11,487 bases of DNA from Erythrobacter donghaensis. GTDB taxonomy: Bacteria; Pseudomonadota; Alphaproteobacteria; Sphingomonadales; Sphingomonadaceae. Of this stretch, positions 10-11,487 are shown one piece after another. Position 1 is the stretch's first letter. Every line of letters starts with the position of its first letter. Under the pieces are notes generated by a model. It saw nothing but the letters and a program-made list of their open reading frames with translations, ran no database searches and was not told where the DNA came from. Both the position numbers and the translations under genes were made by a program. The DNA lies in assembly GCF_001557325.1 (NCBI RefSeq), contig NZ_LSJS01000303.1, positions 1-11,487 of the forward strand. Reading direction: 5' to 3'.

Positions 10-2211
10 CTACGCCGCGTTCCTGCGCATTATCGCTTCCTCGCGATAAGCGATCTTATGCGCAGCTGCGCATAAGATGCCCCAGGCGTCCGCATAAGTG
101 TCGTAGACGGCGATCTGTTCGGCGGTCAGATCATGTTTCAGGATCTCGTATTCGACGCCTGCAAAGCTGAGCGCGCGCGCCTGATAGAGGCCCAGTGCCT
201 TGAGGTCCCGCGACACGAGTTCCATCGCAGCGATGCCCCCTGCCCTGATCTGGCTGATGAAATCTTCGCGGTTGGCAAACGCAGTGCTAGGTCCCCACAG
301 ACCGAGCCGCACGGCATAGGCAAGGTTGTTGACCTCCGAGGCTCCGGTCGCAGAGGCGTAGAGAACCCGGGCATCGGGCAGATTGTTTTGCAGCAGCACG
401 CCGGCGATGCCTTGCAGCGATCCGCTTTTCGTGCCGCGGGCGCCCTCGCCCCCTGCAACACCGCCCATCTCGTGGCTCTCGTCGAAGGCGATGACACCTT
501 CGAAATCCTCGCCCGCCCAATCGAGCAGCTGCTTCAGGCGGGTGGCGTCCTGACGCTGGCTGCGAAGAGTCGGGTAGGTGACGAACAGGATCCCTTCGCG
601 AAACGGAACCGCCTGGTCGATCTTCCAGTTGGAAAGCGGCTGAATGTCGGCGGCAAGGCCGCCGATTGCGCTCCAGTCGCGGCGCGCGTCTTCGAGCAGG
701 CTCTCGTTCTTCGAGATCCAGATGGCCTTGCGGCGTCCCGCAAGCCAGCCATCAAGGATGCAGGCGGCGATCTGCCTGCCCTTCCCCGCCCCCGTGCCAT
801 CGCCAAGGAAATAGCCTTTGCGGTAGGCGCGCCCATGCTCGTCCAACTGCAGGCCAACGCCCTCTTCAGCCGGGGCAAACAGGCCAGGCAGATACTGCTG
901 CCACGCGTTCCCGGCATAGATGACAGTTTCGATCTGGGCCTCGGATAGCAGGCTTTCCTGCAAGACCCGATCCTGCAGCGCCGGGACATAATCCGGGATA
1001 GGTGCCGGGATCGAACCCATGGCCACGCTCTCGACGAGCGGCGTCGGATGTTCGCGTGCGCCAACAATGTCGACCCGGCTTGGCCGGTACGGGATGTAGA
1101 CCCCGCTTTGCTCACCGAGCACGCGCGGCTTGTCCAGGGTACTGAACGCCAGTGCTTCGATCTTGGGGGCTTGGGTTGCCCTCGCTTTGACGGGTTTTGT
1201 GATCGGCGTTGCCCGCATGGCTTTGAAGAGCGCACCCGGCTTTGCTTTCGGCGGCACCGCGCGCGGTTCGCAGTCGGGCTCGGCTGTCACGCGTTTGATG
1301 ATTGGAACCGCAGACGCGACGTCTGCAACTGTCTCTCGCGCCAAAACTGCTTGCCTGATCTGCCCCGGGATCTTGTCGATCACGTACAAGCGCACGGCCA
1401 CGCTGGTGCCCTGTTTGTGATAGCATTTATCGAGCCGGATGGATGTGCGGACCGTGCAAGAGGCGAACGTGTCGTCATAGATTTTCGCAAGCTTTGCGCT
1501 CGTCGTGAACCAGTCCGGCATGATCGCGACGATCCTGCCCCCCTGCTTGAGGCGCGTTATGGCAGCGCGCAGGTGACGCACCGCTGCGAACTCGTCTGCT
1601 CCTCGCCCCATTGATCGGGAGAACGGCGGGTTCATCAGGATCAGGCTTGGCTGCACAGCCGCGTCGAGATGCGAAGCCAGCATGGCTCCATCGATCCCTG
1701 TGATGGTGGCATCGGGAAACAGCAGTGCCAGCTTTTCACGCCTGCGCGGATCGATTTCGTTGAGATGCAATGCGCTGACATCGGGCAAAGTTGCCACCAG
1801 AGCGCCATGTCCGGCGCTCGGTTCAAGAACGATATCGGTTGCGAGTGGCTGCGCCAAAATCACGGATAACGCTGCGAGGTCTGCGGGCGTCGAGAATTGC
1901 TGGTACCTGATCTGGTCTTCACTTCTGACCGTATGTGTCGGCAGTGCCTCGATAAGCGCACTGATCTCCGAAATCTGAGTCAGCATCTGAGGTTTGTTCA
2001 GCAGTCCGGCCACGTGGCGCGTCAATGCCGCCTCGAGCAGGTCAAAAGCGTCCCTCTGGCTCCAGGCGCCGTTTGCGGAGCCCTCCCCGTAGAGCTGGCG
2101 CATCGCCTCAAACAGGCGTGGCTTGTTCGCCAGTCCGGTGGCGATGGCGTGCTGGATTTCGGTGATTGCTGCGTCCAGCTTCTGGCTGGATTGTTCAAAA
2201 TGGTCGGTCAC
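10..2211 (-). CDS. Strawberry-notch-like methyltransferase/SF2 helicase fusion, truncated at C-terminus
   Basis: A 733-residue product with two recognisable parts. Residues about 100-290 form a SAM-dependent N6-adenine-methyltransferase-like fold: motif I VLEPSAGHGAL near 128-138 and the catalytic NPPF at 194-197. Residues about 365-710 are a strawberry-notch-type helicase: nucleotide loop DGTGAGKGRQ at 471-480, DESH box at 577-580 and SATGA at 620-624. The start is a GTG preceded by AGGAG at a 6-base spacing. As I recall, plasmid-borne relatives are about twice as long and carry a second helicase domain, so the protein is incomplete. Family-like sequence stops around residue 711 (after ADAWG), followed by 22 unrelated residues encoded by a palindromic stretch and then TAG at 10-12. 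Probably disrupted by an inserted element, hence likely a broken gene; the methyltransferase half is intact. Possible roles are DNA modification, anti-restriction or conjugation support, but function is not established. It diverges from parA. Confidence 0.8.
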   Translation of the reverse strand: MTDHFEQSSQKLDAAITEIQHAIATGLANKPRLFEAMRQLYGEGSANGAWSQRDAFDLLEAALTRHVAGLLNKPQMLTQISEISALIEALPTHTVRSEDQIRYQQFSTPADLAALSVILAQPLATDIVLEPSAGHGALVATLPDVSALHLNEIDPRRREKLALLFPDATITGIDGAMLASHLDAAVQPSLILMNPPFSRSMGRGADEFAAVRHLRAAITRLKQGGRIVAIMPDWFTTSAKLAKIYDDTFASCTVRTSIRLDKCYHKQGTSVAVRLYVIDKIPGQIRQAVLARETVADVASAVPIIKRVTAEPDCEPRAVPPKAKPGALFKAMRATPITKPVKARATQAPKIEALAFSTLDKPRVLGEQSGVYIPYRPSRVDIVGAREHPTPLVESVAMGSIPAPIPDYVPALQDRVLQESLLSEAQIETVIYAGNAWQQYLPGLFAPAEEGVGLQLDEHGRAYRKGYFLGDGTGAGKGRQIAACILDGWLAGRRKAIWISKNESLLEDARRDWSAIGGLAADIQPLSNWKIDQAVPFREGILFVTYPTLRSQRQDATRLKQLLDWAGEDFEGVIAFDESHEMGGVAGGEGARGTKSGSLQGIAGVLLQNNLPDARVLYASATGASEVNNLAYAVRLGLWGPSTAFANREDFISQIRAGGIAAMELVSRDLKALGLYQARALSFAGVEYEILKHDLTAEQIAVYDTYADAWGILCAAAHKIAYREEAIMRRNAA
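30..64. repeat. Nested inverted repeats resembling a tyrosine-recombinase core
   Basis: TTATCGC at 30-36 and GCGATAA at 43-49 are perfect 7-bp arms around a 6-base loop. GCGATAA at 43-49 and TTATGCGCA at 56-64 also flank a 6-base spacer (50-55), the geometry of a Xer/dif-type crossover site: ...ATAA, six bases, TTATG.... The right half TTATGCGCA is the reverse complement of TGCGCATAA, which occurs in the E. coli dif XerC half-site. The symmetry is seen directly; the recombination role is inference. Confidence 0.4.
53..78. repeat. 26-bp perfect palindrome at gene break
   Basis: Each half is ATCTTATGCGCAG or its exact reverse complement, with no spacer and no mismatch; symmetry ends at 52 and 79. 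It sits exactly where the upstream helicase reading frame loses family resemblance, so I read it as part of the end of an inserted element or a recombinase target. The element itself is not visible because the window begins 52 bases away. Confidence 0.85.
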
Positions 2212-2219
2212 GGTCTGCT

Positions 2220-2241
2220 CCTGATGCTGAACCGCATCAGG
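2220..2241 (-). promoter_or_regulatory. Hairpin overlapping the Shine-Dalgarno of the methyltransferase/helicase gene
   Basis: Perfect 8-bp arms CCTGATGC and GCATCAGG with a 6-base loop. Read on the minus strand, the 3' arm ends in AGG, which runs straight into the AGGAG ribosome-binding site of the GTG start at 2211. In the mRNA the stem would pair part of the Shine-Dalgarno and could limit translation; as DNA it could equally be an operator. Confidence 0.4.
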
Positions 2242-2309
2242 CCATCCCCCTCCCCTCTCGCCTCGGGGTTATGAGCCCGTGATCACCACAGGCTATGCGA
2301 CAAGGGGTG

Positions 2310-2324
2310 CCCGGCAGCGCCGGG
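2310..2324. repeat. Short GC-rich inverted repeat in the divergent intergenic region
   Basis: Arms CCCGGC and GCCGGG flank a 3-base loop. No T-run follows on either strand, so it is not called a terminator. It lies between the divergent starts of the helicase gene and parA, and may be structural or part of an operator. Confidence 0.35.
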
Positions 2325-2344
2325 AATTCGGGACCGGCACCATC

Positions 2345-2414
2345 CCGATGATATCGGTTTGACTTCTACCGCCAAAAATGATCATAAAACACGAACTGGG
2401 TCGCAGAACTGCGA
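2345..2414 (+). promoter_or_regulatory. parA promoter with stacked palindromes
   Basis: TTGACT at 2359-2364 is a good -35 element; CATAAA at 2383-2388, 18 bases downstream, is a plausible -10, giving a transcript start about 40 bases before the parA ATG at 2434. Three symmetric sites crowd it: CCGAT/ATCGG (2345-2357, 3-base spacer) just upstream of the -35, ATGATCAT (2378-2385) over the -10, and TCGCAG/CTGCGA (2401-2414, 2-base spacer) in the leader. ParA proteins with an N-terminal helix-turn-helix commonly repress their own operon, so these are operator candidates. Confidence 0.5.
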
Positions 2415-2433
2415 TTCATCGAAAGGCAGACGC

Positions 2434-3633
2434 ATGTCCTACACCGTGAACACACTGCGAAATATGACCAGATCCTGCGAAATGATGCGCGATCGGGTCA
2501 AAGCTGTGGTGTTCAAACCTGATGAACGCAAGGTCCTGGATATCACGTTTGGGCCTACGGCGGCAGCGGAATTGGTCGGAAGAACGCCTGAAGCGCTTGC
2601 CAAGGCAGAGAAGGAGGGACGTCTCGCGCCTCCGAAGCAGCTTAACAATGGCCGTCGCTATTACACGCTCGAAGACCTTACTCATATTCGCAGGGCGCTG
2701 AACATTCATCCGGGCAAGCTAGCCCATGAGAATGCGGTCGTAGTAGCCGTGCAGAATTTCAAGGGCGGCGTCGGCAAGAGTACGATTACCAAGCATTTCG
2801 CCGATTTTCTCGCACTGAACGGATATAGCGTTCTCGTGATCGACTGCGATCCGCAGGCGTCAACGACAACTATGTTCGACATCCAGCCCGAAGCACTTAT
2901 CGACGAAGAGGAGACTTTAGGAAACTTCCTGTCGCCTCGCAGTACATTCGATGATTTCAGGAAGGCAATCCGAGAAACCGCTTGGCCTACAATCAAAATA
3001 GTGCCGTCAAGCCTTGGCCTGCAGGATGCAGAGTGGGACCTCACGGCAACGTTGACGGAGGGCGGACAAGCAGTGCGCGAGGGACTTCAGCGTCTCCGTA
3101 TTGGCATCGACAGTATCATCAAGGACTTCGACGTCGTCTTGCTCGATCCTCCGCCGGCCATGGGGTTCCTGGGCCTCAATGTGATGGCCGCCGCAACAGG
3201 TATGCTCATCCCGGTTCCGGCAAGGCAGCTCGACTATCTTTCAACCATCCATTTCATGGACACCATCGCCGAGAATATCGAGATCCTCGAGGATCACGGA
3301 ACGCCTGTTGATTATGGGTTCATTCGCGTCGTCTGCTCGGCCTACACCCCCAGCAAGCCGGGTGAAGCCGACATGTGGAAGATGATGAAGGCCACATATG
3401 CCAATTTCCTGCTGAATCAGCCGATCCTGGCTTCTGAGGAAATCAAGAATGCTACTCAAGCATTCCGGTCGATCTATGAAAGCAAGCCTTCAGCAGCGCA
3501 CGCAACCTACCAGCGTTGCCGGGACAATCTCAACGCAGTCTTCGGAGAAGTTCTGAACGAAATACACGAGCAGTGGCCGTCGAAGAGCATTTCGAGACGG
3601 TCATCTGACACGGCAGGGAGTGTTGCAGCGTGA
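2434..3633 (+). CDS. parA: ParA-type partition ATPase with N-terminal MerR-like helix-turn-helix
   Basis: A 399-residue Walker-type partition ATPase that segregates plasmid copies over the nucleoid with ParB and probably represses its own operon. Residues about 40-90 form a MerR-like winged helix (AAELVGRTPEALAKAEKEGR, then GRRYYTLEDL). The deviant Walker A KGGVGKST lies at 110-117 with the signature lysine K110 and catalytic K115; motif A' DCDPQAS is at 137-143 and the Walker B region VVLLDPP at 234-240. The length fits the longer plasmid type (RepA of repABC cassettes, P1 ParA). I chose ATG 2434 because AAAGG precedes it at 7 bases; an in-frame TTG at 2359 lies inside the predicted promoter. 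The parB start overlaps its stop by 4 bases. Confidence 0.93.
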   Translation: MSYTVNTLRNMTRSCEMMRDRVKAVVFKPDERKVLDITFGPTAAAELVGRTPEALAKAEKEGRLAPPKQLNNGRRYYTLEDLTHIRRALNIHPGKLAHENAVVVAVQNFKGGVGKSTITKHFADFLALNGYSVLVIDCDPQASTTTMFDIQPEALIDEEETLGNFLSPRSTFDDFRKAIRETAWPTIKIVPSSLGLQDAEWDLTATLTEGGQAVREGLQRLRIGIDSIIKDFDVVLLDPPPAMGFLGLNVMAAATGMLIPVPARQLDYLSTIHFMDTIAENIEILEDHGTPVDYGFIRVVCSAYTPSKPGEADMWKMMKATYANFLLNQPILASEEIKNATQAFRSIYESKPSAAHATYQRCRDNLNAVFGEVLNEIHEQWPSKSISRRSSDTAGSVAA

Positions 3634-4646
3634 GCCGTCGTTCATTGATTGGCGAGGCCCTCGCCTCCCCTGCCCCTGACCAGCCTTCCGTCTCTGAAGC
3701 CAAGGACGCTGCAGGGGCAACTGCATCGCGCAATTTCACAACACGTCGGCTTGAAGGCTTCACGGAAGCAGCGCGGATGGTCAAGCGCCCGACCATCCGG
3801 CTTAAACCTGCAGAATGTTCGATCTGGCCGGGAAACGCCCGTGATTACGAACAGCTCACCGAACCCCGTTTGCGATCTCTGATTGAGTCGATCCAAGCAG
3901 AAAACGGGAACCGCATCCCAGTAGTCGTGCGTCGGAAACAGCAAGGTGAGCTGCAGTACGAACTGATCATTGGCACAAGGCGTCACTGGGCTGTCGCGTG
4001 GCTCAACGCCAATCACTACCCGGATATCGAGCTCGTAGCGATTATCGAAGATCTCGATGACGAAGCTGCGTTCCGCCTTGCTGATATCGAGAACCGCGAG
4101 AGGGAAGATATCTCAGACTTAGAACGCGGTTTGAACTACAAGGCAGCAGTCGACACCTATTACGATGGCCTTCAGGCACGGCTTGCTGAACGCGTGAAGA
4201 TCTCGAAATCTACGCTCGCCCGGTACATCGGCCTGACAGAGATCCCGCAAACAATCGTAAGCGCATTTGCCTCGCCAATGGAACTTCAGGTCCGGTACGG
4301 TGACAAGCTTCTTCCAGCCATACGCAACCCATCGCTGCGCCCCAGGATGGAGGAAGCAGCAAAGCAAATCGCTGCGGAACAAAGTTTCCGGCAATCCGGA
4401 GACGAAGAGCCAATTTCTGGCCCTCAGGTTGTTGTCCGTCTGCTCAAGGCAGTTTCGGGCAGGCCTGGCCGTGCCCAGAAAGCCGTAATCGAAGCCGCAG
4501 GATCGTCCATTGGTGTCATCGAAAAGGATCGTGCACGAGGGCTCACGATAACGATCAACCCCACTGATTTGAGCGCTGACGAAATCCTCGATGCATTGCG
4601 CCCTCTGATTGAGAAGGCGAAGATTCTAAAAAGGCCTGCCCCATGA
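3630..4646 (+). CDS. parB: ParB-type centromere-binding partition protein (RepB-like)
   Basis: A 338-residue ParB/Spo0J-family protein that would bind a centromere and stimulate ParA. The ParB N domain spans about 55-160, with the nucleotide-binding arginine box as GTRRHW at 115-120 (GERR in most relatives) and ENREREDISDLERG at 154-167, corresponding to the ENxQRExLxPxE motif. A helix-turn-helix follows at about 185-213 (LAERVKISKSTLARYIGL). The C-terminal third is probably for dimerisation. The GTG start shares GTGA with the parA stop and has GGGAG about 10 bases upstream, so translation is coupled to parA. I did not identify a parS site with confidence. Its stop overlaps an ATG (ATGA at 4643) that opens a short frame leading to rep. 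Confidence 0.92.
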   Translation: MSRRSLIGEALASPAPDQPSVSEAKDAAGATASRNFTTRRLEGFTEAARMVKRPTIRLKPAECSIWPGNARDYEQLTEPRLRSLIESIQAENGNRIPVVVRRKQQGELQYELIIGTRRHWAVAWLNANHYPDIELVAIIEDLDDEAAFRLADIENREREDISDLERGLNYKAAVDTYYDGLQARLAERVKISKSTLARYIGLTEIPQTIVSAFASPMELQVRYGDKLLPAIRNPSLRPRMEEAAKQIAAEQSFRQSGDEEPISGPQVVVRLLKAVSGRPGRAQKAVIEAAGSSIGVIEKDRARGLTITINPTDLSADEILDALRPLIEKAKILKRPAP

Positions 4647-4780
4647 AGGAGGGTTTCGAACCCACCTATGGCCATGCCTTCACCACTCTGAAAATGTGGC
4701 TTTTATCGTTTTATTTCATATGTTTAGCCCACTTGTCCCACATGTGGGACAGCGGCAGATTTACTAGGCGAAGAACGTGA
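4643..4780 (+). CDS. Possible 45-residue leader peptide bridging parB and rep
   Basis: This short frame starts at an ATG sharing ATGA with the parB stop and ends at a TGA sharing GTGA with the rep start, so it fills the gap with 4-base overlaps at both ends. AAAAAGG lies about 9 bases before the ATG. The product, MKEGFEPTYG... to ...RFTRRRT, has a hydrophobic stretch at residues about 19-30 (WLLSFYFICLAH) and a basic tail. It matches nothing I recognise. The arrangement suggests a translated leader coupling rep expression to parB, comparable in principle to leader-peptide control in other replicons. An open frame of this length could occur by chance, so the double overlap is the main argument. 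Confidence 0.33.
   Translation: MKEGFEPTYGHAFTTLKMWLLSFYFICLAHLSHMWDSGRFTRRRT
4734..4751. promoter_or_regulatory. 18-bp perfect palindrome upstream of rep
   Basis: TGTCCCACATGTGGGACA is its own reverse complement and lies 25 bases before the rep GTG. It could be an operator for Rep or ParB, a centromere element, or an RNA stem near the rep ribosome-binding site (AGGCGAAG, 4766-4773). No second full copy was found in the window. In repABC replicons the equivalent gap encodes an antisense RNA, but I see no convincing promoter or terminator for one here. Confidence 0.6.
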
Positions 4781-6078
4781 GCGAGAAAGATCAGTCCTCC
4801 TCCGGTCGCCGGGTGCAGTTTGAGATGTTCTTCACGCTGCCTGATTTCAGCGACATCTCGCTGCGGGACTATCAGGAGACCATGCAGCGTCCTTTCTTCA
4901 GCCTTTCGAAGAAGAAGCGCCTGAAACCCATTGAGTACCTCAGCCCGGACAAGTCGGTCACCGTCCATGTATCAGCCAACCCAGCCTATGGGATGGCGAC
5001 CATCTGGGATGCAGATATCATGATCTATCTGGCGTCTCACCTCAACGAATTGCGCGAGCGGGGTGACAACGACCTGTCGCCGACCATTCGTGTTCAACCT
5101 GGCGATCTCCTCAAGCGAATCTGCTGGGGTGTAAGCGGGCGCGCCTATGAGCGACTGATCGCAGCGCTTGATCGTCTTCAGGCCACGACGATCAAGACGA
5201 ACATCCGAGCAAACTCCAAATCCCGCGAGACCACATTTTCGTGGATCGATAGCTATACTCATCTCGTTGATGAGCGAACCCAGCGTTCGCTTGGGATGGA
5301 AATCACGCTTTCCAAGTGGTTCTTCGACGGGGTCATGGACAAGCGGAATGTCCTTGCGATTTCGCCTTTGTATTTCGAGATAACGAGCGGACTTGGGAAA
5401 TGGCTCTACCGCGCAGCTCGCAAGCACGCTGGTGGCAATGGGCCAGAAGGTTTCACGATTGGCTTCGAAACTCTTCATCAGAAAAGCGGCAGCGAAAGCT
5501 CCCTACCCTCGTTCAAGAACAAGATTCTTGAATTGGCGCGAGCTAACAACCTACCGGATATCAGTCTGGAGGTCATTGGAGCAGAGACGCCGCGCCCAAA
5601 GCTAAAGATGGTGATGCGTCGCCATCTCGAAAAACCTTCTGGAAAAACCGAGGGCAGTGGCTCTGTCACCACGGAGAGCAGAGCCCAGCGCATTCAGCGC
5701 GCAACCCCCGAAAAGGCAGCCAAGGTCAGCCCTCCGCAGGAATTCGTTGATCCTGCCCTCGTGCGCAAGCTCCTTGCAACAACGAGCGCGAGCTTGCGCC
5801 CCGAACAGCAAGCCGATGCATCAGCGGCATTGGACAGCAATGCAAGCCAATCTCAGTCACGGCGAAGGGGAGGGGGCGCGCAGGACACTCTTGACCCCGA
5901 AATCTATCAGGCCATCCGTGCTGAATGTCCTGGTTGGGATCTCGATGTGCTGATGCGGCAATTCGATTCCTTTTTGAACAGCAATCCGCATGAGTTGCCA
6001 AGGAACTACTCGAAACGGTTCTACGGCTTCATGAAGAAGCACCACGAGCGCAACAAGCATACGCTTCCGGGCTTTTGA
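4777..6078 (+). CDS. repA: Replication initiator protein A (RPA family)
   Basis: A 433-residue plasmid replication initiator of the RPA family. Family signatures: RPFFSLSKKKR at 38-48, PAYGMATIWDADIMIYLASH at 69-88, the LSKWFFDGV region at 178-186 and KWLYRAARKHAGG at 208-220. These belong to the N-terminal winged-helix initiator domain (about 15-285). A low-complexity linker rich in Ala, Ser, Gln and Arg (about 290-370) precedes a compact C-terminal domain at 373-433 (EIYQAIRAECPGW, ending KHHERNKHTLPGF). The GTG start has a modest AGGCG ribosome-binding site and shares GTGA with the stop of the short upstream frame. Order parA-parB-rep on one strand resembles repABC, but the initiator differs from RepC. 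The iteron-like repeats immediately downstream are its probable binding sites. Confidence 0.9.
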   Translation: MSEKDQSSSGRRVQFEMFFTLPDFSDISLRDYQETMQRPFFSLSKKKRLKPIEYLSPDKSVTVHVSANPAYGMATIWDADIMIYLASHLNELRERGDNDLSPTIRVQPGDLLKRICWGVSGRAYERLIAALDRLQATTIKTNIRANSKSRETTFSWIDSYTHLVDERTQRSLGMEITLSKWFFDGVMDKRNVLAISPLYFEITSGLGKWLYRAARKHAGGNGPEGFTIGFETLHQKSGSESSLPSFKNKILELARANNLPDISLEVIGAETPRPKLKMVMRRHLEKPSGKTEGSGSVTTESRAQRIQRATPEKAAKVSPPQEFVDPALVRKLLATTSASLRPEQQADASAALDSNASQSQSRRRGGGAQDTLDPEIYQAIRAECPGWDLDVLMRQFDSFLNSNPHELPRNYSKRFYGFMKKHHERNKHTLPGF

Positions 6079-6223
6079 AGATCGCGACCTTCTGCAGGAC
6101 TTGGTAGCGGCGCCCGGCGGGCTGGTAGAGCTGCCGCTCGGCTTCAGGCCTGATTACGCTCTGCCGCAGGCATAGCGATCTATCGTAACAATAAGAACAG
6201 TCTCATCATGCACGGCAGCTAGC

Positions 6224-6241
6224 GAACGTGTTTTCGGGAAT
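6224..6241 (-). repeat. Iteron-like repeat, copy 1
   Basis: On the minus strand this reads ATTCCCGAAAACACGTTC. It differs from copy 2 at one of 18 positions and is inverted relative to it. A GAATC site (6238-6242) overlaps its end. Confidence 0.6.
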
Positions 6242-6498
6242 CACTTCGCTTAGCCCGCCCGATCAGAGGATCGCGTCTACGTTCGGCGCCTGCTAAGAAA
6301 TCGCTGACTATGCCCAAGAGCACCGGCATGGACCCTACGGCCGTGCTTCTGCCGTCCATCTTTGACTGAAATCAGCGATCTACTGTGCAGCGCTCAAGCC
6401 AGCTGGCAGATCGCCTTAGGCTCCACTTCGGTCACTGCGATCCAGAAACCCGACAGGTCGGCCTTCAAGCTGGGCGATGGAAAATGCCTCCAAAAACC

Positions 6499-6516
6499 AT
6501 TCCTGAAAACACGTTC
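6499..6516 (+). repeat. Iteron-like repeat, copy 2
   Basis: ATTCCTGAAAACACGTTC. Copy 3 starts 33 bases further on, about three helical turns, so a protein would meet both on one face of the DNA. Confidence 0.6.
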
Positions 6517-6519
6517 GAC

Positions 6520-6538
6520 CGGAAATACCACATTTCCG
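6520..6538. repeat. Inverted repeat between iteron-like copies 2 and 3
   Basis: CGGAAAT and ATTTCCG form perfect 7-bp arms with a 5-base spacer. The right arm is the first part of iteron-like copy 3, so the structure combines direct and inverted symmetry as initiator-binding regions often do. Confidence 0.45.
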
Positions 6539-6549
6539 AAAACACGTTT
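6532..6549 (+). repeat. Iteron-like repeat, copy 3
   Basis: ATTTCCGAAAACACGTTT, matching copy 2 at 15 of 18 positions, with the GAAAACACGTT core intact. Confidence 0.55.
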
Positions 6550-6661
6550 GTTTCAGCATAGGGGCAAATGGGGGATCAGAAAGTTTGGGATCGGCGCATC
6601 ATATGTGAATCGGAACGCTAACTGATCCTCTGGCCTCACGTTCTCAGCCGCGCTTTCAAAG

Positions 6662-6670
6662 TTATCAACA
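6662..6670 (+). promoter_or_regulatory. DnaA-box-like site
   Basis: TTATCAACA differs from the canonical box TTATCCACA at one position and lies in the proposed origin between iteron-like copies 3 and 4. A single near-match is weak evidence alone. Confidence 0.35.
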
Positions 6671-6751
6671 GGGCGGGGAGGTGGCGAACGTATGATCAGG
6701 CATCAGATGACGTGTTATTAGAATCTGGCGGTCGTGCTATCAGAAACAGAA

Positions 6752-6769
6752 CATCGTGTTTTCAGATTC
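6752..6769 (-). repeat. Iteron-like repeat, copy 4 (diverged)
   Basis: The minus strand carries the CTGAAAACACG core shared with copy 2, preceded by GAAT and followed by ATG, so only the core is conserved. Its end coincides with a GATTC site at 6765-6769. GAATCTG at 6721 and CAGATTC at 6763 also form 7-bp inverted arms across 35 bases. Confidence 0.45.
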
Positions 6770-7017
6770 GGCATAGCCGCCCCGACTCGCGAGAAATCAG
6801 GAGTTTGCAGACTGATCGCGAGCAGGTAACCTCTTAACCTTAGAATCTAAATCCCCTAACGTTCACGCCTGCGGCGGATTTGTTATTGATTTGATTCAAG
6901 ATTAAGGAAGGTCGACATATCCCTTCGACAATGACCGCTTTGCGTGCAATGCGTACCTTCCACCGGCATGGCACCTTGGCAGATTAGCGCTGGTCACAGC
7001 CTTAAGATCGATTCCGT

Positions 7018-7042
7018 GAATCACGACAGGGACCTGTGATTC
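7018..7042. promoter_or_regulatory. Inverted repeat upstream of the WGR gene
   Basis: Perfect 7-bp arms GAATCAC and GTGATTC with an 11-base spacer, centred about 60 bases before the WGR start codon. Both arms contain GANTC. The spacing suits a dimeric repressor site, but no ligand is known. Confidence 0.4.
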
Positions 7043-7090
7043 AAACTTCCGATTGGCCTAACTTCACGTGGCTATCGCATAGTCCTCCGC

Positions 7091-7372
7091 ATGTTAGAGG
7101 ATGGACAAAGGGAATGTCAGATTTGGCTCGAAGCCAAAGATCCCGATCTCAATGTTGCAAGGCGGTACGCCATATCTCGAAGCCAGGACCTGTTCGGTGT
7201 CACGATTGTTGAATTCTCGTGGGGGCGGATTGGAACGCGTGGACAGCGACGCAAGTTATCCTTCGCCGACGCAGGCAGGGCGACAAAGTTCGTAGAACAG
7301 TTGCTGCGTCGCAGAGCGACCTCACATCAACGAATTGGCGTTTGCTACCGGGAAGTATTCCGGGGTCCATGA
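7091..7372 (+). CDS. Small WGR-domain protein
   Basis: A 93-residue protein that is almost entirely one WGR domain. The diagnostic strand FSWGRIGTRGQRR spans 42-54 (W44, G45, R46); the preceding RRYAISRSQDLFGVTIVEF and following FADAGRATKFVEQLLRRR match the rest of the fold. WGR domains contribute to nucleic-acid contact in PARP enzymes and also occur alone or with other modules in bacteria. Stand-alone copies have no defined role that I know of; nucleic-acid binding is the reasonable inference. ATG 7091 is the first start in the frame after a stop at 7037-7039; no clear Shine-Dalgarno precedes it. Its stop lies five bases from the end of the convergent gene. Confidence 0.75.
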   Translation: MLEDGQRECQIWLEAKDPDLNVARRYAISRSQDLFGVTIVEFSWGRIGTRGQRRKLSFADAGRATKFVEQLLRRRATSHQRIGVCYREVFRGP

Positions 7373-7377
7373 TACGT

Positions 7378-8304
7378 TCACGTGTCCGTTGGGACGATTG
7401 CGCCATCGGAAGTTCGAAGGCTGACCATGCTGGCAGTCACCATAGCCGCAACTGATTGTGAAGCGGTTCGCTTGGTCACCCCAAGGCCTCTGGCAAGCTC
7501 CGCACGGGTGAGAGGTCCGATGCCGGCTACCAGACGCCAAGCTAGGGGAGCCGTCGAGGAGGCGTACAGGCCTGAAAGTGCTCCCTCAGCCTGCAGGTGA
7601 GCCCTTTGCATGGCACGGAGGTCAGCGCCTGCACTCTCAGCGGTAGCCTGAAGCGCACGGCCTAATAGGACGGGCAGGGGTTCCTCGTGAAGTTCACGGA
7701 ACAGAGCCCGCGGCATGACCCCAGCAAGCGCCATTGGCGCCGAGCCCAACCCAAACAAGTGCGGCCGCATGGCAGCAGCGAGCGATGCCGCCCAGGCCGC
7801 TCCACGCGGTGCCATACGTGTTACCGCGAACCTACCGACCTGGACCATCTCACTGCCACCTTCGAGGAAATCGATTTCTTCAGTGCGCAGCTCCGCCAAC
7901 CATTCAAGGAGGGTGCCCATCGGATCGCGGCTCGGCAGCAGCGCGTCGAGCCGTTCGAGCGCGCGATCAGCAGGCCTGTATGTCTCGCTGAATCCTTCGG
8001 AGTGATTTTTCGCGGCCATAACCAGCTTGGCAGCACGGGCGAGGGGAGGGTGACCACGCCGGCTGATCCACGACAAGAACTGGCGGCGTTCTTCGGAATA
8101 CCACGAGCGCACAAGCTCGTCGGCCTCAAGCCCCGGATTGTGTTCAATTCCAAGATTATCAAACGGATAATCGCGCACATGCACGCGCCAGAGGCGACGG
8201 AGTGAGGCCAGCGCAAGGCATTCGGACAGCTCGGGCGAGATGAAGGGGAGGGCGCCTTCGATGCGGGCAAGCGTCAGTTGCCAGGGTGCTGGGGCGGATA
8301 CCAT
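7378..8304 (-). CDS. Unrecognised protein with C-terminal helix-turn-helix
   Basis: A 308-residue, mostly helical protein with no signal peptide or membrane segment. Residues about 265-294 (LTRAELARGLGVTKRTASQS... onward) form a helix-turn-helix, so DNA binding is likely. The overall plan (helical N-terminus, LPVLLGRALQATAESAGADL region, terminal HTH) recalls the plasmid-associated DUF1612/RHE_PE00001 proteins of rhizobia, but I cannot confirm homology. ATG 8304 has no strong Shine-Dalgarno; a TATACT hexamer lies on the minus strand shortly upstream. It is divergent from the recombinase gene, with 188 bases between the starts, and convergent with the WGR gene. A plus-strand frame at 7687-8205 overlaps it but lacks any recognisable domain. 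Confidence 0.6.
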   Translation of the reverse strand: MVSAPAPWQLTLARIEGALPFISPELSECLALASLRRLWRVHVRDYPFDNLGIEHNPGLEADELVRSWYSEERRQFLSWISRRGHPPLARAAKLVMAAKNHSEGFSETYRPADRALERLDALLPSRDPMGTLLEWLAELRTEEIDFLEGGSEMVQVGRFAVTRMAPRGAAWAASLAAAMRPHLFGLGSAPMALAGVMPRALFRELHEEPLPVLLGRALQATAESAGADLRAMQRAHLQAEGALSGLYASSTAPLAWRLVAGIGPLTRAELARGLGVTKRTASQSVAAMVTASMVSLRTSDGAIVPTDT

Positions 8305-8492
8305 CGGCCAGATAGTATATAAATGGCGTAAAAAGTATACCCAGCTTGTACGGTGGATTTGCTGTCCGATAAGCGCCCTTCACGGACGACATGCTAATCT
8401 ATATAAAGCAGGCGAAATGCGCTGCGATGTCGCCCCGGCCCGAAGGCAAGGGCAGGGCACAGCAGCTGCATTGAAGCTGGAGGAGTGTCGCC
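8305..8492. promoter_or_regulatory. Divergent intergenic region with repeated AT-rich elements
   Basis: TATATAAA occurs at 8316-8323 and again at 8400-8407, and AGTATA at 8314 and 8334 (20 bases apart, two helical turns). These are plausible -10 or operator elements for the two divergent genes: on the minus strand TATACT serves the HTH gene, and on the plus strand TATATA at 8400-8405 could serve the recombinase. No good -35 hexamer accompanies either, so the promoter calls are tentative. Confidence 0.35.
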
Positions 8493-9503
8493 TTGGATGA
8501 TGATAGCAGCAAGGCTTTGGGGCTCTCAGATGAGGCTGCGCTCGCGCCCTTGGGGAATGTGATCCCGCCGCAGCTCGCGGCTGAAATCGAAGTGGCCCGC
8601 TCATACCGGGCGCGCTCCAAGGCGGCCAACACTGTCCGAGCCTATGACAGCGACTGGCGGCAGTTCGAAGAATGGTGCTGGGTGCGCGATCTTGAGCCTA
8701 TGCCGGCTATGCCGGAGGCAGTTGCCACATACCTTGCCTCGCTGGCGCAGGCGGGGAGGGCGGACAGCACTATCGGGCGGCACCTTGCCGCCATCGCCTG
8801 GCACCACAGGCAGGCAGGTCAGGTAGCACCCCAGCATCGAGATCCGCGCGATGTGATTGCTGACACACTTGCTGGGATCCGCCGCGAGCAGCGTGCGCGG
8901 CCAACGCGCAAGAAGAGCGCTATTCTGGCAGCTGATCTCGCGCGGATGATTGCAGCGGCCGAAGGCCAGAGTCCGCGGGCTATCCGCGACCGGGCGGTCA
9001 TGGCACTTGGGCTGGCGGCGGCGTTGCGGCGTTCCGAACTGGTCGCGCTACAGCTGGCTGACCTCGAACTGGTGCGCGAGGGGCTCAAGCTGACGATCCG
9101 GCATTCCAAGACCGACCAGGAGGGGGCAGGGCAGGTCATCGCGGTTCCCTCGGGCAAGGTGCTCAAGCCCGGTCCCCGCCTCAACGAATGGCTCAGCGTA
9201 AGGGGAGGGGAGGCTGGTCCATTGTTCTACCGCACCGACGCACAAGGGATGATGACCAAGGAGCCCATGTCGGATCGCTCGGTTGCCCGCCTGATCCAGC
9301 GCTACGCCGAAAAGGTTGGGCTCGATCCTGCCGCAGTCGGTGCGCACTCACTGCGCTCAGGGTTTCTGACCGAGGCGGCCAAGGCCGGAGCCTCGCTGCC
9401 CAAGATGCAGGAGGTATCGCGTCAGAAGAAGGTGGAGGTGCTCCTCGGTTATGTTCGCGATGCCGCGTTGTTCGAGAACCACGCCGGTGAGGGCTTTCTA
9501 TAG
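8493..9503 (+). CDS. Tyrosine recombinase / integrase
   Basis: A 336-residue site-specific tyrosine recombinase. The N-terminal SAM-like core-binding domain spans about 35-130 (NTVRAYDSDWRQFEEWC, then DSTIGRHLAAIAWHH). The catalytic domain shows R179 in ALRRSEL, the beta-hairpin lysine K206 in HSKTDQ, H285 and R288 in HSLRSG, and nucleophile Y320 in LLGYVRDAALF. The position normally His or Trp (usually SRHKS in this group) is Q311 in SRQKK. The TTG start follows GGAGG by 9 bases; an overlapping ATG at 8497 is out of frame. Likely roles are multimer resolution of the plasmid or mobility of a cassette. No obvious att repeats flank it in this window. Confidence 0.88.
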   Translation: MDDDSSKALGLSDEAALAPLGNVIPPQLAAEIEVARSYRARSKAANTVRAYDSDWRQFEEWCWVRDLEPMPAMPEAVATYLASLAQAGRADSTIGRHLAAIAWHHRQAGQVAPQHRDPRDVIADTLAGIRREQRARPTRKKSAILAADLARMIAAAEGQSPRAIRDRAVMALGLAAALRRSELVALQLADLELVREGLKLTIRHSKTDQEGAGQVIAVPSGKVLKPGPRLNEWLSVRGGEAGPLFYRTDAQGMMTKEPMSDRSVARLIQRYAEKVGLDPAAVGAHSLRSGFLTEAAKAGASLPKMQEVSRQKKVEVLLGYVRDAALFENHAGEGFL

Positions 9504-9710
9504 AGAATCTAGGCTATGGAATGCTGGCTTGCGCCACGATGGTCCCTGGTTTCAGGTACCCTTACGGAGCGTCACATATGACAGAGGCGTTATCGTGCTA
9601 GGTCTGCTAGAGCTGGATCGCGAATAATTGATTACACCGCAGGAAAATTTCATTAGATTCCCCAGGTAGTCGATTTTGATCCTGCCGATTGAGTGACTGA
9701 AACATAGAAA
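9504..9710 (+). promoter_or_regulatory. Intergenic region before ietA with a weak candidate promoter
   Basis: TTGATT (9628-9633), a 17-base spacer and CATTAG (9651-9656) form a weak sigma70-like promoter about 55 bases before ietA. The stretch has no gene and is more AT-rich than its neighbours. CTAG repeats (9598-9610) are the only other symmetry noticed. Confidence 0.25.
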
Positions 9711-10781
9711 ATGGCCCGCGCTGATCATCTTGTCTCGCTCGTTCGCGCCAGCGTTGCTGGCGACCGTGAGACGCTGCGCGCAGCGGCCGAGGCCATTGCG
9801 GCGGACGAACGAGCCAAAAATCACCACATCGTTGCAGATCGCATCGAACGCGCACTAAGCACCGTGCCGGTAACGCCGCCGCCTCTCACGACCTCCCAGC
9901 CTCAGGTCGGGCCAGGTCGAGACACGATCATCGAAATCGAAGCGCGGGTTAGATTTGATGATCTGCTCCTTTCGTTGCCAGCGCGCGAGAATGGTCGTCA
10001 GCTGATCGAAGAGCACATGCGTGCTGATGTTTTGCGCGCACATGCCTATGAGCCACGGCATCGGATTCTGCTTTCCGGGCCTCCTGGAAACGGGAAGACG
10101 TCCTTTGCTGAGGCAATCGCGGAGGCGCTGGGCTTACCATTCTTCGTCGTGCGTTATGATGCTTTGATCGGCAGTTACCTTGGTGAGACCAACGCCCGGC
10201 TTCGCAAACTGTTCGATTATGTGCGCACACAGCCGAGCGTCCTATTTTTCGACGAGTTTGATGCTATCGGTAAAGAGCGTGGCGACACCCATGAAACCGG
10301 CGAAATCAAGCGCGTGGTCTCGTTCTTGCTCATGCAACTCGATCAATTGCCGCCGTATGTTATAGTTGTTGCGGCTACCAATCATGCAGAGTTGCTTGAT
10401 CGCGCGGTATGGCGTCGCTTTCAGATGCGGTTAGCTTTTCCACAGCCCGATCGTAAACTGCTTGAGGTGTTTTTGGACAGGGTCATCTCTGGCTGGCCTG
10501 AAACTCCGCGCATGACTGTACAGAAGCTTGCGACCCGCCTTGGCGAAGTAAGTTATGCCGAAGCGCTCGACCTGTGCCAAAATGTGAGGCGCAGGCAGAT
10601 ATTGGGTTTGGGGGAGATTGGGATCGATGATGCGCTCGAGACAGAGCTTGAACTATGGAAATCGCGCGTACGGCCCGGGAATGTAGATGGCGAGCGATCC
10701 AACCAAGCCCCTGCTGAGGCTGACGCCAGACCAATCAAGACAACGCCCCGCCGGTCAGCAAAAATTTCCCCGACCACCTGA
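9711..10781 (+). CDS. ietA: AAA ATPase, IetA-like (partner of subtilase IetS)
   Basis: A 356-residue single-domain AAA ATPase. The N-terminal helical segment (1-50, ARADHLVSLVRA... and ADERAKNHHIVADRI) is typical of ATPases paired with subtilisin-like proteases. Walker A GPPGNGKT is at 123-130, Walker B VLFFDEFDAIG at 177-187 (D181, E182), sensor-1 AATNH at 221-225 and the arginine fingers in AVWRRF at 235-236. The pair with the overlapping protease matches ietA/ietS, described from an Agrobacterium Ti plasmid as a toxin-antitoxin-like stability and incompatibility locus and later recovered as a phage-defence system; that is recollection of the literature. In that model the ATPase restrains or activates the protease. 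The ATG has only a weak Shine-Dalgarno. The C-terminal ~30 residues are low complexity and overlap ietS. Confidence 0.85.
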   Translation: MARADHLVSLVRASVAGDRETLRAAAEAIAADERAKNHHIVADRIERALSTVPVTPPPLTTSQPQVGPGRDTIIEIEARVRFDDLLLSLPARENGRQLIEEHMRADVLRAHAYEPRHRILLSGPPGNGKTSFAEAIAEALGLPFFVVRYDALIGSYLGETNARLRKLFDYVRTQPSVLFFDEFDAIGKERGDTHETGEIKRVVSFLLMQLDQLPPYVIVVAATNHAELLDRAVWRRFQMRLAFPQPDRKLLEVFLDRVISGWPETPRMTVQKLATRLGEVSYAEALDLCQNVRRRQILGLGEIGIDDALETELELWKSRVRPGNVDGERSNQAPAEADARPIKTTPRRSAKISPTT

Positions 10782-11487
10782 ATCTTTCCCTCGGGATCGC
10801 CAGCAAGCCACATTTGCCCCAAAATTCGACCGCCTGGCCCAGGCTTTGGCGCGAGATCCGGGCGGTCTCGAACTGCGTGCCGATCCGGCTGCCCTGGCAC
10901 CGGAGAGATTGCTCGTCTTCGAAGTCCGTGGCTCGGTGAACAATTTTGCCGCAGCCGTTCAGCGCGTGCCCGGCCTCGAACTGATCGACGAGGAGGAGTT
11001 AGGCAGCGACGACGACAAGGAGCCCGTTGCCTACCTCCTTGTTCCGGACGCACGCGCGCTCGCAGAACTGCTCTCTCTTTGGAGGCGCTGGAACGCCGAT
11101 CAACTGCAATTCGGGGAGACGCCGTGGCGTGGCGTGTTCGAACTGCTTCGCGATCTGCGACCATGGGGGCCTCAGGACAGGGTCCAACGAATCGACGCCA
11201 GTTTTCTCGCCGAGGAGATCGAGGAGCGCGGCGAGGACGAGCTTGTCCCGCTGGAGATCGAATTGATCTACCGAGCCTCTGAGGTTCAGGCCCAGGCACG
11301 GGAAGATGAAGTGCGCGCGGCAGTGACCGCACGCGGCGGGCAGATCATCTCGCGTGCCCGGCTGCCCGAGATCGCCTATCATGCCCTGCTCGTGGATTTG
11401 CCGGTACGCGCGATCCGGGAGATCATCGATCAGGCGGAAGGCGGCATCGCCAGCCTCGAGCCTGTCATGCACATCCGCCCGCAAAGC
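10687..11487 (+). CDS. ietS: Subtilisin-like serine protease IetS, N-terminal part (runs off window)
   Basis: An open frame of 267 codons continuing past the right edge without a stop. It starts at ATG 10687, immediately after an in-frame ATG-TAG, and overlaps the end of ietA by 95 bases in another frame. The product opens MASDPTKPLLRL, with FPRP and FAPKFDRLAQAL following, then RLLVFEVRGSVNNFAAAVQR and YLLVPDARALAELLSLWRRW. This is the characteristic N-terminal region of the S8 proteases encoded beside such AAA ATPases. The Asp-His-Ser catalytic domain would lie beyond the window, so activity cannot be judged. The family call rests on this N-terminal pattern plus the neighbour. Minus-strand frames over the same DNA (10553-11332, 10999-11484) show no domain and are taken as shadows. 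Confidence 0.8.
   Translation, partial: MASDPTKPLLRLTPDQSRQRPAGQQKFPRPPESFPRDRQQATFAPKFDRLAQALARDPGGLELRADPAALAPERLLVFEVRGSVNNFAAAVQRVPGLELIDEEELGSDDDKEPVAYLLVPDARALAELLSLWRRWNADQLQFGETPWRGVFELLRDLRPWGPQDRVQRIDASFLAEEIEERGEDELVPLEIELIYRASEVQAQAREDEVRAAVTARGGQIISRARLPEIAYHALLVDLPVRAIREIIDQAEGGIASLEPVMHIRPQS

Follow-up and report, generated by a model that had tools for sequence, protein, structure and literature searches.

The window analysed here, a stretch of 11,487 nucleotides from contig NZ_LSJS01000303.1 of Erythrobacter donghaensis, carries 14 copies of the octamer GGGNAGGG whose strand changes only once, inside the replication gene repA. These octamers are very probably FtsK-orienting polar sequences (KOPS), sites that load and orient FtsK, arranged on a sphingomonad RepA/ParAB plasmid so that they diverge from the origin toward the far pole of the replicon. 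This conclusion draws on the motif, its polarity, the direction of its turnover and its convergence on dif-like sites. The sequences further place the strand switch at rep, limit the observed turnover to the permissive (origin-to-terminus) orientation, and include a predicted FtsK recognition helix that is conserved in one host genome. What the window covers is the origin region, with RepA and ParAB, of such a plasmid, and all replicon-wide results reported below come from plasmids of relatives.

Polarity in the window and on related plasmids

An exact scan of the window returned six minus-strand sites followed by eight plus-strand sites and no further copies. An earlier reading of the sequence alone (the sequence-only reading) had listed the same positions, strands and switch; all were exact, and none had been missed. 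The left arm holds, on the minus strand, GGGCAGGG at 238..245 and GGGAAGGG at 779..786 (each present in 7/8 aligned sequences, the window included), GGGGAGGG at 2081..2088 (7/9) and three sites present in 9/9: the intergenic GGGGAGGG at 2248..2255, GGGCAGGG at 3668..3675 on the parB template strand and, as the final site of this arm, GGGTAGGG at 5501..5508 on the repA template strand. The right arm, on the plus strand, begins within repA with GGGGAGGG at 5867..5874 (9/9). It continues with GGGCAGGG at 7672..7679 on the template strand of its host gene (7/8), GGGGAGGG at 8043..8050 and 8245..8252, both again on a template strand (2/5 and 4/5), the intergenic GGGCAGGG at 8450..8457 (1/5, the window alone), GGGGAGGG at 8753..8760 (5/5), GGGCAGGG at 9124..9131 (3/5, with one more relative shifted by one base) and GGGGAGGG at 9202..9209 (4/5).

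A single switch among 14 randomly oriented sites has a chance of 0.16% in either direction, close to the 0.2% estimated previously, and of 0.08% from minus to plus. Dinucleotide shuffles of the window contained 1.52 sites on average and at most 5 (n=200), against the 14 observed. Coding constraint of the window's genes is a practically negligible explanation, as the sequence-only reading had argued, and is refuted as a full one: although synonymous shuffles average 2.17 permissive of 2.88 sites, they yield at most 11 sites and reach 14 in 0 of 2000 trials, and the observed sites are divided among coding strand (seven), template strand (five) and intergenic DNA (two). This null shuffled codons within eight genes, keeping protein and codon usage, and dinucleotides between the genes.

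The switch, between 5508 and 5867, precedes four iteron-like copies by 0.4–0.7 kb and the cumulative G-C minimum (6545) by 0.7–1 kb. The iterons thus begin a little to the right of the plus site at 5867, and they do not coincide exactly with the switch. In the window the switch also agrees with the GC-skew minimum to about 1 kb, while on whole related plasmids GC skew is near zero and too weak to mark an origin.

Does the polarity extend beyond the window? From 60 listed relatives of its RepA, plasmids were picked by closeness and size, a non-random choice (W12 and W13 were counted and excluded from the analysis). On these relatives the skew continues. In each of the nine completely read plasmids (96–346 kb), 84–97% of the sites fit an origin-to-terminus pattern, which flips at the rep gene and reverts once elsewhere; polarity is significant (p<0.05) in 16 of 17 complete related records, and a 52 kb plasmid has the same pattern. 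The nine plasmids comprise 469 sites with overlaps counted separately, or 427 once sites within 7 bases are merged. On the EY-1 plasmid, whose rep gene lies outside the stretches read, the switch was placed independently of the rep annotation. The KOPS-like polarity claimed for the window is therefore borne out over the full length of its relatives, where neither GC skew nor coding suffices to produce it. The accompanying suggestion of a large plasmid or chromid did not fare as well: the closest complete relatives, plasmids of Blastomonas fulva and Sphingopyxis macrogoltabida, measure 146 and 151 kb, below the size of about 250–350 kb that marks chromids and megaplasmids, and judging from these sequences, that of the 52 kb plasmid included, KOPS polarity requires neither a large replicon nor a chromid.

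A search of species genomes provided 53 loci with a relative of the window's RepA. Left of the rep 3' end these loci hold 22 plus and 315 minus sites, right of it 363 plus and 60 minus. With loci L155 and L160 omitted, one switch fits 723 of 754 sites (51 loci), and all 50 switches flanked by sites on both sides have their midpoints at most 2 kb from the rep 3' end (median +421). Among nine further plasmids of 22–487 kb, whose RepA is 42–45% alike, the larger ones switch nearer the start of rep. In practice, the polarity of GGGNAGGG maps the origin of plasmids of this kind to about 2 kb, including those whose GC skew gives no signal, and it can reveal misassemblies and inversions.

Could replication-linked mutation or strand composition gather G-rich words on the leading strand, with FtsK uninvolved? 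We regard this as very improbable. Other G-rich words are skewed too (GGGANGGG 0.749, GGANGGGG 0.711, GGGNGGGG 0.683), but the first two can overlap the motif or have sequence in common with it, and the exact consensus GGGNAGGG ranks first of 12,160 motifs of the same form when switch points are left free, so that the earlier proviso of equal skew in unrelated G-rich octamers found no counterpart in the data. With GC skew at about zero, Markov models of order 1–5 predict 54–67% against 90% observed, and GGGNTGGG and GGGNCGGG reach only 57–60% on arms cut at the KOPS switches. Cutting the arms in this way makes several tallies slightly circular, namely the Markov and GC-skew comparisons, the density profile, the flank enrichment, the one-mismatch pool and the division into shared and unshared DNA; the ranking of 12,160 motifs, the strand counts around rep and the single-switch fit are free of it.

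Convergence on dif-like sites

A scan with an E. coli-type dif found good sites within the KOPS convergence of three plasmids. The search was refined with a pattern derived from these three sites and then with a matrix from 30 draft-genome sites, and more were found. At no more than one mismatch, the three-site pattern occurs in 18 of 18 draft genomes searched, a subset of those carrying the 53 loci; the reversed pattern has two matches in all. Octamers point at the dif-like sites: within 10 kb on each side of 20 of the places listed, we counted 68 plus and 7 minus on the left, and 5 plus and 60 minus on the right. Forty samples along a 2.55 Mb Novosphingobium contig gave 103 plus and 13 minus on one side of dif and 10 plus and 80 minus on the other, while GC skew was uninformative. 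Since the strand counts converge on dif, GGGNAGGG behaves as KOPS on the host chromosome.

On the plasmids themselves, strong dif-like sites by the 30-site matrix (at least 25 bits) lie in the convergence or at most 1 kb from it in 7 of 17 cases: B. fulva, RAC04, EMRT-2, C. marinus, pSHV1, pMI1 and S. sanguinis, the last three having been scanned partially. FtsK with a gamma domain above the PF09397 cut-off was present in 3 of 3 genomes searched. In the one genome compared, Chol11, the gamma domain retains the E. coli helix IGYNxAARxIE, whose N, R and E contact KOPS. The terminus control by FtsK and Xer that the sequence-only reading foresaw is thus shown only in part: the octamers of several relatives converge on dif-like sites, but scans over the full length of three others (151, 197 and 242 kb) found none.

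These features suggest the following scheme. KOPS would diverge along both arms from an origin inside or just downstream of repA, and host FtsK, loading anywhere at the division septum, would be directed from the origin to the far pole of the replicon. ParAB would separate the origins, FtsK would clear and pair the terminus, and XerCD would resolve dimers. Because the far pole of several relatives has a dif-like XerCD site, the cell would treat the plasmid as a small chromosome. Action of FtsK on the plasmid and recombination at the dif-like sites are what we infer from the sequences. For plasmids lacking a dif-like site, we would guess that the Cre-like recombinase of the backbone, or another resolvase, may substitute.

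Several observations weigh against this reading. The far arm of the window's own plasmid lies outside the data, and for it the whole-replicon pattern is that expected from relatives. One of the 51 loci, L118, is without a minus-to-plus switch. The three smallest plasmids of the 22–487 kb set (22–45 kb) are mixed: raw counts are 5, 6 and 17 for rep plus the DNA to its left, and 4, 11 and 3 for the DNA to its right, and nine right-hand sites of one among them form a tandem repeat. Polarity of the 77 kb S. aerolata plasmid is non-significant (p 0.37), and the arms of some plasmids are highly unequal (315 and 31 kb in C. marinus). TomMM15b has its dif-like site (24 bits) 14 kb away from the convergence, and those of N. 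humi and AND118 are in place but weak, below the shuffle maximum. Whole scans of S. macrogoltabida 203, FD7, EY-1 and AntQ-1 pl4 found no dif-like site, nor did the scanned parts of three further plasmids, 7 of 17 being without one in all. Finally, the turnover of sites is less telling than it looks. The window and eight relatives 92–95% identical to it have 20 distinct site positions (9123 and 9124 possibly being a single site), of which 15 are variable and all 20 are permissive; one-mismatch words are themselves biased 27:10 toward the permissive orientation, so by our own arithmetic 15 of 15 permissive is worth about 0.009 and not 3e-5. Turnover confined to permissive sites backs the KOPS reading without deciding it.

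KOPS polarity on plasmids has been published before, for Rhizobium (2006), Enterobacteriaceae (2025) and large replicons (2026). Strand-biased GGGCAGGG was described on Rhizobium leguminosarum plasmids, pRL12 being without a flip near repABC (PMC1557990). When we re-measured pRL8, which has repABC rather than RepA/PF10134, polarity fitted 22 of 23 sites. Among enterobacterial plasmids above 75 kb, 41% show significant KOPS clustering (PMC11724359), so KOPS bias on mid-sized plasmids is not new. According to the same source, these KOPS converge on the Xer site, much as those of several of our relatives converge on a dif-like site, dimer resolution is FtsK-dependent, and all replicons above 250 kb carry an FtsK-controlled Xer site; here, dif-like sites occur at the convergences of plasmids of 98–346 kb, four of the seven below that 250 kb. 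It also cites phage P1, which encodes Cre, for a KOPS bias from ori to lox; the window, for its part, encodes a Cre-like recombinase. On large extrachromosomal replicons, alphaproteobacteria included, KOPS polarity is reported to invert at dif (PMC13342612). Those cases are large replicons, whereas the present plasmids are mid-sized, and the string 'sphingo' is absent from the main text of that paper. Chromosomal KOPS or AIMS (architecture-imparting sequences) of E. coli, R. leguminosarum and Azorhizobium (the last reported in 2008; PMC2443382) have the same octamer and the same ori-to-dif direction, as does the sampled Novosphingobium chromosome. FtsK guidance is, on this evidence, not limited to chromosomes and very large replicons: Sphingomonadales plasmids of 50–350 kb carry its sequence marks, several of them together with dif-like sites, and an arrangement of these octamers pointing outward from the origin extends to unexceptional plasmids of medium size in bacteria from soil and water.

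Three further observations concern dif-like sites and chromosomal octamers. A 21.7 kb plasmid, NZ_CP155761 (L253), has a dif-like site at 973 that, with 44 bits, equals those of much larger plasmids. Contig C5 of genome G003 has dif-like sequences at 50250 and 99828, about 50 kb apart, possibly a dif-integrated element. The sole right-arm chromosome sample with flipped octamers (2 plus, 0 minus) is 1538688–1542744 of Chol11 contig G006:C10, with a PF10134 gene about 3 kb off; this is perhaps an integrated plasmid keeping its own polarity, for which two sites are too few.

Octamer density at the plasmid origin

On the nine plasmids the density of permissive sites falls from 1.38 per kb in the 2.5 kb next to the switch to 0.24 at 10–20 kb and 0.10 beyond 120 kb, and such sites are sparse beside the convergence (0.07 per kb in 2.5 kb). 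All nine plasmids peak at the origin, with 0.60–1.40 per kb within 5 kb versus 0.13–0.28 beyond 10 kb, a 3.5–9-fold difference. Eight further records, counted on both strands, gave five clear peaks (0.90–1.50 versus 0.16–0.27 per kb); the peak is weak on AND118 (0.60 versus 0.24) and S. aerolata (0.40 versus 0.25). The draft RepA loci reach a maximum of 1.9 octamers per kb directly downstream of rep. Host-chromosome samples (n=41), not anchored to the chromosomal origin, have 0–0.65 octamers per kb, and the two end samples of the contig contain 1 and 0. Near the plasmid origin, octamers are denser than in any sampled stretch of one host chromosome.

A density rising toward the terminus is typical of chromosomes, without being defining for KOPS, and is not what we found. 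On the R. leguminosarum chromosome GGGCAGGG occurs every 7 kb near the terminus and every 25 kb near the origin (PMC1557990), whereas on these plasmids GGGNAGGG reaches its highest density at the origin and thins out at the convergence. An origin peak is hardly seen on pRL8, the last of the eight further records (0.20 versus 0.12 per kb), and phage P1 carries a single octamer less than 5 kb from oriR. No report of an origin-proximal density peak of KOPS was found in the literature searched, which consisted mostly of titles and listings, or in selected passages of PMC13342612, and we do not claim its absence in print. Within that literature the peak is apparently unreported; it runs opposite to the gradient of the Rhizobium chromosome, which peaks at the terminus, and it is not seen on P1 or pRL8.

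For word enrichment we excluded L155, L160, L118 and flanks shorter than 3 kb, and reduced the remainder to 29 non-redundant flanks of at most 4 kb. In these GGGNAGGG is the fourth most enriched word (147 versus 19.7 expected), and the rest of the twelve top listed words look like iteron or DnaA-box pieces. The wrong-way octamer is also enriched (29 versus 3.0), with 28 of 29 copies within 1.2 kb of rep, before the usual switch. Origin-adjacent minus-strand genes contain 45 permissive sites at 2.42 per kb, and 102 lie outside them at 1.06 per kb, which argues that the peak is not the effect of one gene. We also considered the PF10134 family as its cause and rejected it, as PF10134 loci from wider draws hold only 0.46 (class) and 0.22 (phylum) octamers per kb; the family was matched in 12 of the 190 genomes drawn from the class and in 31 of the 299 from the phylum, and 21 and 26 loci, not oriented by gene, were counted. 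As for the origin-adjacent minus-strand genes (7378–8304 in the window, and in the flanks of relatives), some are about 28% alike and others have no detectable likeness, and their octamers lie on the template strand.

Does the peak mark age rather than function? If the origin backbone were the DNA held longest in a fixed orientation and the cargo were young, sites would have accumulated there; we consider this rather unlikely. At 20–40 kb, DNA shared between plasmids indeed exceeds unshared DNA in permissive sites (0.31 versus 0.16 per kb) and has fewer wrong-way ones, and at 10–20 kb a small sample of shared DNA reaches 0.59–0.96 per kb. In the 5 kb nearest the origin, however, unshared DNA matches shared DNA in density (1.14 versus 1.00 per kb) and holds seven times as many sites per kb as remote unshared DNA. 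Shared DNA more than 20 kb out has only 0.1–0.4 per kb, and the 41 chromosome samples do not exceed 0.65. Could the origin-proximal sites have a different role, for example in replication initiation or as a barrier, with only their consensus in common with KOPS? This seems improbable to us. The iteron-like words that head the list of enriched flank words, with GGGNAGGG in fourth place, and the enrichment of the wrong-way version speak for such a role, but the sites spread across several genes to 5 kb, with the consensus and direction of chromosomal KOPS, and pRL8 and P1 replicate without an origin peak.

Taking the octamers as KOPS, we tentatively propose, at somewhat less than even odds, that the dedicated divergent cluster at the origin (about 1–2 sites per kb over 4–5 kb) belongs functionally to the replication and partition module of sphingomonad plasmids, as an outward collar that drives FtsK off the origin, prevents it from stripping Rep or ParB and works down to about 50 kb. 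Dense KOPS at the origin would keep FtsK from running into an origin bound by Rep and ParB. If this is true, chromosome-like handling by FtsK would begin far below the 250 kb line of Enterobacteriaceae, given that the collar would work on replicons of about 50 kb. The reversed density gradient offers a direct test of roles of KOPS besides leading FtsK to dif.

Genes of the window and neighbouring features

The window contains the parA-parB-repA module and iteron-like repeats by which RepA (PF10134)/ParAB sphingomonad plasmids are recognised. A parA-type partition ATPase is encoded at 2434..3633 (plus strand), its start picked to match the length in relatives, 1200 bases; PF13614 and PF01656 match the longer open reading frame (ORF) 2359–3633, and the top NCBIfam models, partition_RepA and PRK13869, both score below cut-off. 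It is followed on the same strand by a parB-type partition protein with a SopB-like helix-turn-helix (3630..4646; PF18090, PF02195) and by the replication initiator repA (4777..6078; PF10134, E 8.9e-65), whose product is 98–99% like the B. fulva and S. macrogoltabida plasmid versions. The origin of replication is likely 6223..6766, a strand-less feature to which origin function is assigned from iteron-like repeats, TTATCAACA at 6662, which we take to be DnaA-box-like, the G-C minimum and part of a GANTC cluster. The iteron-like core AAAACACG occurs at 6227, 6506, 6539 and 6755, with a fifth copy at 2386, and 10 of the window's 26 GANTC copies fall within 6079–7090.

A tyrosine recombinase (8493..9503, plus strand; PF00589) has Cre as its closest solved sequence (E 6e-15, compared with 1.5e-8 for XerD) and scores below the XerC and XerD NCBIfam cut-offs. 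It might act in dimer resolution, which is a guess from its relationship; with the settings used, no lox-like palindromes were found near the gene, and a target site of the recombinase was not found. A site-specific integrase occupies the same origin-adjacent place on plasmids both with and without a dif-like site.

The other genes are an incomplete strawberry-notch-family gene, a WGR-domain ORF, a function-unassigned gene and an AAA ATPase. The strawberry-notch-family gene (10–2211) is cut short on its left side, its counterpart in B. fulva measuring 4.1 kb; likeness to several relatives ends at window position 81, and L116 has the left end in common. For the AAA ATPase (9711–10781) the best NCBIfam model is the anti-phage ATPase IteA, far below cut-off (212 versus 510 bits), and on the EY-1 plasmid an S8 peptidase gene comes after its counterpart. 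A search of viral contigs for relatives of the window found none. The nearest records are 92–95% identical across most of the window or 98% across part of it. The window is a mosaic with a joint at about 7984–8006: 1210–8006 is 98% like Sphingopyxis H053 (L113), and 7984–11487 is 98% like the EY-1 plasmid, itself not among the relatives of the window's RepA region.

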